From Rallus limicola (taxonomy: Eukaryota > Chordata > Aves > Gruiformes > Rallidae), in assembly GCA_022605955.1 (NCBI GenBank), contig JAKCOZ010000040.1:2604001-2668000 (forward strand): DNA of 64,000 nucleotides, given 5' to 3'. Position 1 is the first letter of the stretch. Every line of letters begins with the position of its first letter. Below the pieces are notes generated by a model. That model ran no database searches. It had not been told where the DNA came from and worked only from the letters and a program-made list of their open reading frames with translations. Below are positions 47,283-47,935 of the stretch, piece after piece. The translations under genes and the position numbers were made by a program.

Positions 47283-47531
47283 TTAGGGCAGTCCCATCTC
47301 AACAGGTCCTGCCAGTGCTGGCTCACAGCTTGAGGGTCCCTGAGGAGGCTTGGAGAGCTCACGCAGCAGCACCAGCTCCATGGCCAGGAGAACTTCACGT
47401 TGGCCAAGGTGGCTTCTCCTGCCACAACGCGACAGCCGAGCAGCCTCCAGCGCCGTGGCCTCCAGCAGCTGGGGGCTGCCCAGCCAGGAGAAGGCAGCAG
47501 CTGCCGTGCAGGAGATTCCTGTGGATGATGT
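47283..47531 (-). CDS. H2B-like variant, exon B (loop 1, alpha-2, alpha-3)
   Basis: The acceptor is CCCTACAG|ACA. Eighty-two codons and TAA at 47285-47283. It encodes TSSTGISCTAAAAFSWLG and SPQLLEATALEAARLSR, then the L2/alpha-3 part RRSHLGQREVLLAMELVLL. A non-helical tail ends PVEMGLP. Residues differ widely from canonical H2B, but hydrophobic spacing and the Arg pair of loop 2 are kept. Confidence 0.85.
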   Translation of the reverse strand, partial: TSSTGISCTAAAAFSWLGSPQLLEATALEAARLSRCGRRSHLGQREVLLAMELVLLRELSKPPQGPSSCEPALAGPVEMGLP

Positions 47532-47857
47532 CTGTAGGGAGAGCACCATTCAGAGTATGGCATAGGAACACAGCCCAGGGAGCTGCCTGCAGGCTGAGCT
47601 CCCCCAGCCCCATCCACCCCACCCTCATTTTCATTAAAAGCTTCCAGAGTCAGCTAACATGTGAGCACCCAGGCTTGGCTGGGGAGCTGAGCATGGAAAG
47701 CGGGTGGTTGCACCCAGGTGGGATGTACCTGATTCAGGAGCTTGCGGACATAGGTGGAATGAGCCACCTTCTTCTGCCTGCGGGGACGGAGGAGGCAGAG
47801 GAGGCTCCGCCAGACATGTCCAGCTGGTGCCTTCTTCCTCGGGAGGTCAGGCTTCAT
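47283..47857 (-). CDS. Divergent histone H2B variant, two coding exons (H2B.N-like)
   Basis: The exons 47857-47729 and 47531-47283 join in phase 0 to give about 125 residues; canonical H2B has 126. The histone-fold landmarks align in order. A basic stretch RPRRQKK is followed by alpha-1 YVRKLLNQ (H2B YVYKVLKQ), TGIS in loop 1 (identical), EAARLSR (EASRLAH), RRS...QREV (KRSTITSREI) and LLRELSK (LLPGELAK). Register holds from TGIS to ELSK with one extra residue in alpha-2, and loop 1 is one residue shorter. After ELSK the sequence turns to PPQGPSSCEPALAG, so the alpha-C helix is lost. A 197-nt GT-AG intron and an AATAAA signal replace the intronless, stem-loop-ended form of canonical H2B genes. 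I infer an H2B.N-type or other germline variant. From memory human H2BN1 and MYO1D both map to 17q11.2; orthology is unproven. Confidence 0.85.
47729..47857 (-). CDS. H2B-like variant, exon A (basic tail and alpha-1)
   Basis: Starts at ATG 47857 (G at -3), the first ATG in this frame; it gives MKPDLPRKKAPAG, then a Leu/Trp-containing stretch, RPRRQKK and STYVRKLLNQ. The donor is CAG|GTACAT. The frame stays open upstream to a strong acceptor-like tract at 47913-47935 (CTGCTCTCCTTTAG), so the real exon may start at 47912 or 47909 and be preceded by a 5' exon. In that case the N-terminus could be longer. Confidence 0.75.
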
Positions 47858-47935
47858 CACTGCTGCCACACAGGGAGCCAGCTCAGGACACGCTGCAGCC
47901 CCAACACCTCTGCTAAAGGAGAGCAGAAAAGGGTG

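Follow-up and report, generated by a model that had tools for sequence, protein, structure and literature searches.

H2B.N is an H2B variant expressed in mammalian oocytes, with a highly divergent histone fold (less than 50% identity to core H2B) that is split by an intron at the same place as in H2B.K, as described in the parts of Raman et al. (2022, PMC8857922) drawn on here. According to the same parts, most H2B.N orthologues have a truncated C-terminus and have lost helix αC, whose residues belong to the essential nucleosome acidic patch, and the variant is present in marsupials and platypus "but not chicken", the non-mammalian outgroup of the dating, which placed its origin at about 177 million years ago. 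One exon of human H2BN1 overlaps MYO1D-DT and, in the relevant section of the 2022 nomenclature paper, the gene "is only found in mammals" (PMC9526256); an excerpt of a further study maps H2BN1 to 17q11.2 and reports 42.4% identity and loss of K120 (PMC11742582). Other variants are characterized in the same parts of the literature: H2B.K, which also occurs in birds (PMC8857922, PMC9526256), is near core H2B and carries a polyglutamine N-tail, and H2B.L and H2B.W are divergent germline variants, intronless and arisen in mammals (PMC8857922). Birds are not mentioned in the excerpts of PMC10356639 and PMC11395991, and none of the literature matches listed, which come from a collection lying mostly outside subscription journals and bioRxiv, reports H2B.N from a bird or reptile.

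The window, the whole 64-kb stretch of Rallus limicola DNA analysed here, contains two minus-strand exons that splice in phase to encode a 125-aa protein with a pI of 10.4 (Table 1), exactly the arrangement of two in-phase exons and about 125 aa that had been predicted originally. Exon 1 terminates at the donor CAG/GTACAT (47729); scored with an approximate weight matrix, 13 of the 125 GTs between 46.5 and 49.0 kb equal or exceed it. The 47729/47531 junction agrees with the protein models of relatives (LNQ/T..STG), and exon 2 is conserved across the bird and turtle relatives described below. Unlike replication-coupled core H2B genes, the gene possesses an intron and an AATAAA signal and showed no stem-loop match: an Rfam scan of the 64-kb window yielded no family at gathering score, the histone 3' stem-loop included. 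Above the ATG, the nearest in-frame stop is at 47944. A splice-acceptor-like TTTAG/CAG is located at 47912, just above the predicted 5' untranslated part, with pyrimidines at 15 of the 16 positions from -20 to -5, and because of this site a non-coding 5' exon of the histone gene is predicted further towards MYO1D.

Table 1. Features of the histone gene and of the adjoining MYO1D-like exon, in window coordinates.
Feature	Position	Strand	Description
Predicted 5' untranslated part of exon 1	47858..47912	-	prediction only
Coding exon 1	47729..47857	-	129 nt; ATG at 47857, basic N-terminal tail, helix α1 (KKVAHSTYVRKLLNQ)
Intron	47532..47728	-	197 nt, GT..AG, phase 0; between α1 and loop 1, interrupting the histone fold
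Coding exon 2	47283..47531	-	249 nt including stop; loop 1, α2, loop 2, α3, short C-terminal extension
AATAAA polyadenylation signal	47243..47248	-	~35 nt below the histone stop codon
MYO1D-like first coding exon	49727..49822	+	encodes MAEQESLEFGKADFVLMDAVTMPEFMANLRLR, then a GT in donor-like TGAG context

In the open reading frames of relatives P0030-P0033, the shared frame ends at the same point, and the open frames themselves seem to continue beyond the donor. Past LLNQ or LLNR these frames read VCPDC, VHPSW, VSPEW or VSPSW, and the window reads VHPTW, reminiscent of canonical QVHPDTG. An alternative splice, LNQVHPTW/GIS, would restore the canonical loop length; it was rejected, with a donor score of -4.2 versus 1.5 and no use in the models of relatives. 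As the intron begins with VHP-like codons, we also considered that it might have arisen when the VHPDTG codons were duplicated in tandem; 6816 of 20000 random pairs match equally well, and the idea was rejected.

We regard it as virtually certain that the gene encodes a divergent H2B variant, real and conserved in birds. A phmmer search of the window protein against PDB sequences returned 177 sequences at E<=1, and the best 60 of these 177 are all named H2B, in agreement with the H2B-type histone fold first recognized from the sequence alone. The matches span the whole fold; among these 60, a chain containing two copies of H2B reaches an E-value of 5.4e-14, and the best single H2B one of 2.2e-07. 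A family profile of 17 sequences (the window protein and 16 of the 24 matches of a first protein search) reached a single H2B at 4e-14. Among the matches listed for this profile, 59 of 60 PDB rows bear H2B as their name or as one of several names; the remaining one, 6kw3, is labelled H4, yet resembles an H2B chain in length and score. Identity of the window protein to three canonical H2B stretches amounts to 29/77 (38%), 29/78, and 34/98, close to the "about one third" estimated beforehand. Like core H2B, it runs in the order α1-L1-α2-L2-α3, with RRS in loop 2. Comparison with the Histone profile, suggested along with the original prediction, gave a divided answer: in Pfam, at E<=10, the window protein did not match this profile, nor did its penguin, hummingbird, and jay relatives, emu (E 0.0011) and kiwi (0.085) remained below the cut-off, and the turtle relative (1.2e-06) exceeded it. 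The PDB matches and the relatives outweigh this Pfam miss.

The first protein search identified 24 relatives, and the family-profile search, which scored 7996 candidates (those sharing most words), identified 33, comprising 21 named birds, one turtle, and 11 sequences without species label. The birds are penguin, crane, gull, kagu, cuckoo-roller, curlew, egret, ruff, sunbittern, seriema, snowy owl, jay, hummingbird, hawfinch, wrentit, white-throated sparrow, swallow, emu, kiwi, chickadee, and manakin, which we take to represent 12 orders; the turtle relative comes from Mauremys and stands for a cluster of 13 sequences (E 4.2e-23). That other birds conserve the frame, as the original prediction implied, is evident from the protein records of these 21 named species, and the full-length relatives share it across the junction. 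Its description of the gene as unannotated-looking holds only in part: among the 21 bird records, 14 have been given an automatic name containing "histone H2B" and seven are hypothetical, unnamed, or uncharacterized, and no name among the matches listed says H2B.N. Duck, goose, chicken, and other Galloanseres are absent from the 22 named matches of this word-sharing protein search, an absence that fits a loss of the gene in that group. No mammalian name occurs among the 33 profile matches (11 without species label). A query with the turtle protein, in which two residues were replaced by X to keep very common words from crowding out rare ones, gave three candidates and two matches, both turtle-like and no mammal (one without species label). 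A pattern search of genome contigs (24 pattern matches) and viral contigs (79) revealed no relative.

In a tree of 26 rows, the window protein groups with the crane Grus (95/95), passerines fall together (97/92), and curlew pairs with ruff (100/97) and kagu with sunbittern (98/93). The 20 Neoaves are split from emu and kiwi (100/100), and the birds from both canonical H2B and the turtle protein (100/99). Emu and kiwi are not recovered as a single clade, and the deeper forks within Neoaves are tentative. The supported groupings presumably fit known bird relationships, the histone gene seems to have descended vertically, and the window itself would probably derive from a gruiform or a near relative.

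Pairwise identity among 20 birds is highest in α3 (0.84) and late α2 (0.78) and lowest in the N-tail (0.62) and the C-terminal extension (0.65), and constraint therefore appears to act mostly on the histone fold. Compared with canonical H2B, loop 1 of the bird proteins is one residue shorter and α2 one residue longer, with a proline at that place in 19 of 21 aligned rows, turtle included. AlphaFold models of the penguin and turtle proteins (mean pLDDT 62.2 and 62.5) both break the predicted α2 there. Following α3, the birds carry a Pro/Ser/Gly-rich extension of ~20 aa, shorter in passerines, and a helix is absent there from the weak penguin model. In the turtle relative, RCETIKAVTKSTGCQ is retained and forms a helix in the model (αC, 120-129), and a K120-like lysine is present as well. 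Foldseek assigned all of the best 50 of 1341 matches (penguin) and of 961 matches (turtle) to nucleosome or histone structures, at best E-values of 0.079 and 0.0016, respectively, and a TM of about 0.3, without a match at E<=0.001 for either model. Because of the low pLDDT and the poor superposition on H2B, the models were used only for predicted helix positions.

The histone had been predicted to adjoin MYO1D, and this is borne out by a MYO1D-like exon 1 beginning at 49727 on the plus strand, 1.87 kb away; from its N-terminus, we take this exon to be the first coding exon of MYO1D. Both genes lie head-to-head and are transcribed apart, with 1,870 bp from ATG to ATG; among sauropsids, this proximity was seen in the window. 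The 32-aa MYO1D-like peptide had no PDB or Pfam match, and its first nine letters had no full-text literature match. Sequence words of myosin I and CDK5R1 gave meaningful matches only for FGKADF and VLMD in the MYO1D-like exon; CDK5R1 itself was not found in the window with such words, and TMEM98 peptides had no match there at 35% identity or more. A 73-bp tandem repeat (48815-49070, 3.5 copies, 81% matches) is situated between histone and MYO1D. Further away, the last 58 residues of a 206-aa open frame at 9298-9915 (-) match the start of MAP3K14 (NIK) kinase constructs (PDB, E 8.4e-12), so that this frame is probably a MAP3K14 exon and MAP3K14 probably neighbours MYO1D in this bird. Relative to the human gene order around MYO1D, one flank would match the window, and the far flank would differ in view of the MAP3K14 match. 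Long open frames with GC-rich codons occupy both strands at 20964-22364, a stretch that may be a CpG island with a promoter, which might belong to MAP3K14; two of these frames had no Pfam match. A 267-aa open frame at 63033-63833 (+) resembles the end of a retroelement reverse transcriptase (Pfam RVT_1, E 0.21, below cut-off) and is presumably of CR1 type; similar-looking shorter frames occur elsewhere in the window.

We consider the bird gene a likely orthologue of H2B.N, since it combines a location beside the 5' end of MYO1D with the exon structure, the divergence, and the truncated C-terminus of that class; the same four features support the earlier suggestion that the H2B.N class might extend to birds. 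As for H2BN1, whose exon overlaps MYO1D-DT, the window gene lies beside the 5' end of MYO1D; an intron splits the histone fold between two exons, the fold is less than 50% identical to core H2B (29/77, 29/78), and αC and K120 are missing in birds, the turtle relative differing in that it keeps αC in its model. In contrast to the published distribution (mammals only, not chicken), the gene is found here in birds and a turtle, and the bird form ends in its own extension; likeness to H2B.N is judged by position and anatomy. H2B.L and H2B.W share the divergent character and lack the intron. Core H2B differs from the bird form in the lengths of loop 1 and α2 and in retaining αC.

That the exons are H2B-like chance open frames has a negligible probability: the missing Pfam match of the window protein speaks for it, but the H2B matches in PDB and the 33 relatives, whose full-length members share the frame over the junction, speak against it. 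A fold-interrupting intron alone is not decisive, because H2B.K has an intron in the same region, and the gene might accordingly represent a separate sauropsid variant, for instance an H2B.K copy that landed near MYO1D independently, instead of an H2B.N orthologue. The turtle form, nearer to canonical H2B (39/76) and with αC kept in its model, is compatible with this origin. However, it would require the 5' side of MYO1D to have been hit twice, and the fold of H2B.K is near core H2B (PMC8857922, in part), whereas the bird gene has neither such a fold nor a polyglutamine N-tail; human H2BK1 is 67% identical to its nearest H2B and located by ABCF2. A separate origin of this kind is therefore rather unlikely in our estimate.

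Two further explanations concern function. A histone-derived protein without nucleosome function, similar to H2B.L in the sperm subacrosome, might have kept its fold to pair with a partner of the H2A type or to serve in some other way. Loss of αC in birds, the broken α2 in the models, and the weak structural match are in its favour, and the parts of Raman et al. drawn on here leave a non-nucleosomal role open for mammalian H2B.N (PMC8857922). Yet the protein is basic throughout (pI 9.6-11.3 in the 21 aligned relatives, as in the window), a basic pair in loop 2 is found in 21/21 relatives and RRS in 16/21 as well as the window, and α3 is the best conserved part, so we regard such a role as unlikely, if deserving of attention. 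Within the window's own lineage, constraint may be relaxed, given a long terminal branch (0.32 vs 0.13 for Grus in the 26-row tree) and loss of an α1 tyrosine, invariant in the 21 aligned relatives and replaced by histidine; of the 49 columns conserved to at least 90%, 41 are kept and eight changed, including K to E in α3. The gene would then be real in birds and a decaying copy in this species. Against this, the reading frame is open and the splice sites and the poly(A) signal are in place, and the number of invariant columns broken is not exceptional: the window keeps 18/19, and in a leave-one-out count other birds break 0 to 3 and the turtle 6. Decay thus appears very unlikely.

The explanation that we favour, and believe to be probably correct, is that this two-exon divergent H2B gene is the sauropsid H2B.N orthologue and would act as a germline variant forming looser nucleosomes. 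Its mRNA would end in a poly(A) tail and would be transcribed outside S phase, probably in oocytes; the promoter would be common to the histone and MYO1D or lie near the MYO1D promoter. The histone fold would pair the bird protein with H2A. Bird proteins lack αC and, with lysine 120, a ubiquitylation site, and carry the extra α2 residue, mostly beside a proline; from these three changes it would follow that H2A-H2B dimers with the variant dock less firmly and are read differently by factors binding the acidic patch. By analogy with mammalian H2B.N and from its anatomy, we judge the odds to be about even that the bird protein serves as a nucleosomal H2B of the germline, probably of the oocyte. 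As the turtle relative keeps a K120-like lysine and, in its model, the αC helix, truncation of αC probably happened twice, separately in birds and in mammals.

Taken further, and with only a modest leaning in its favour, H2B.N would be as old as the amniotes, with αC intact in the common ancestor of turtles, birds, and mammals, and the helix and K120 ubiquitylation lost in parallel. Its age would have been hidden by the chicken outgroup because Galloanseres probably lost the gene. Proteins that at present appear as "histone H2B-like" or "uncharacterized" could then be given a specific name by curators. If true, the origin of H2B.N would shift from mammals, about 177 million years ago, to the amniote ancestor, the C-terminal helix of H2B would have been lost repeatedly, and egg-laying animals would become available for studying an oocyte histone.
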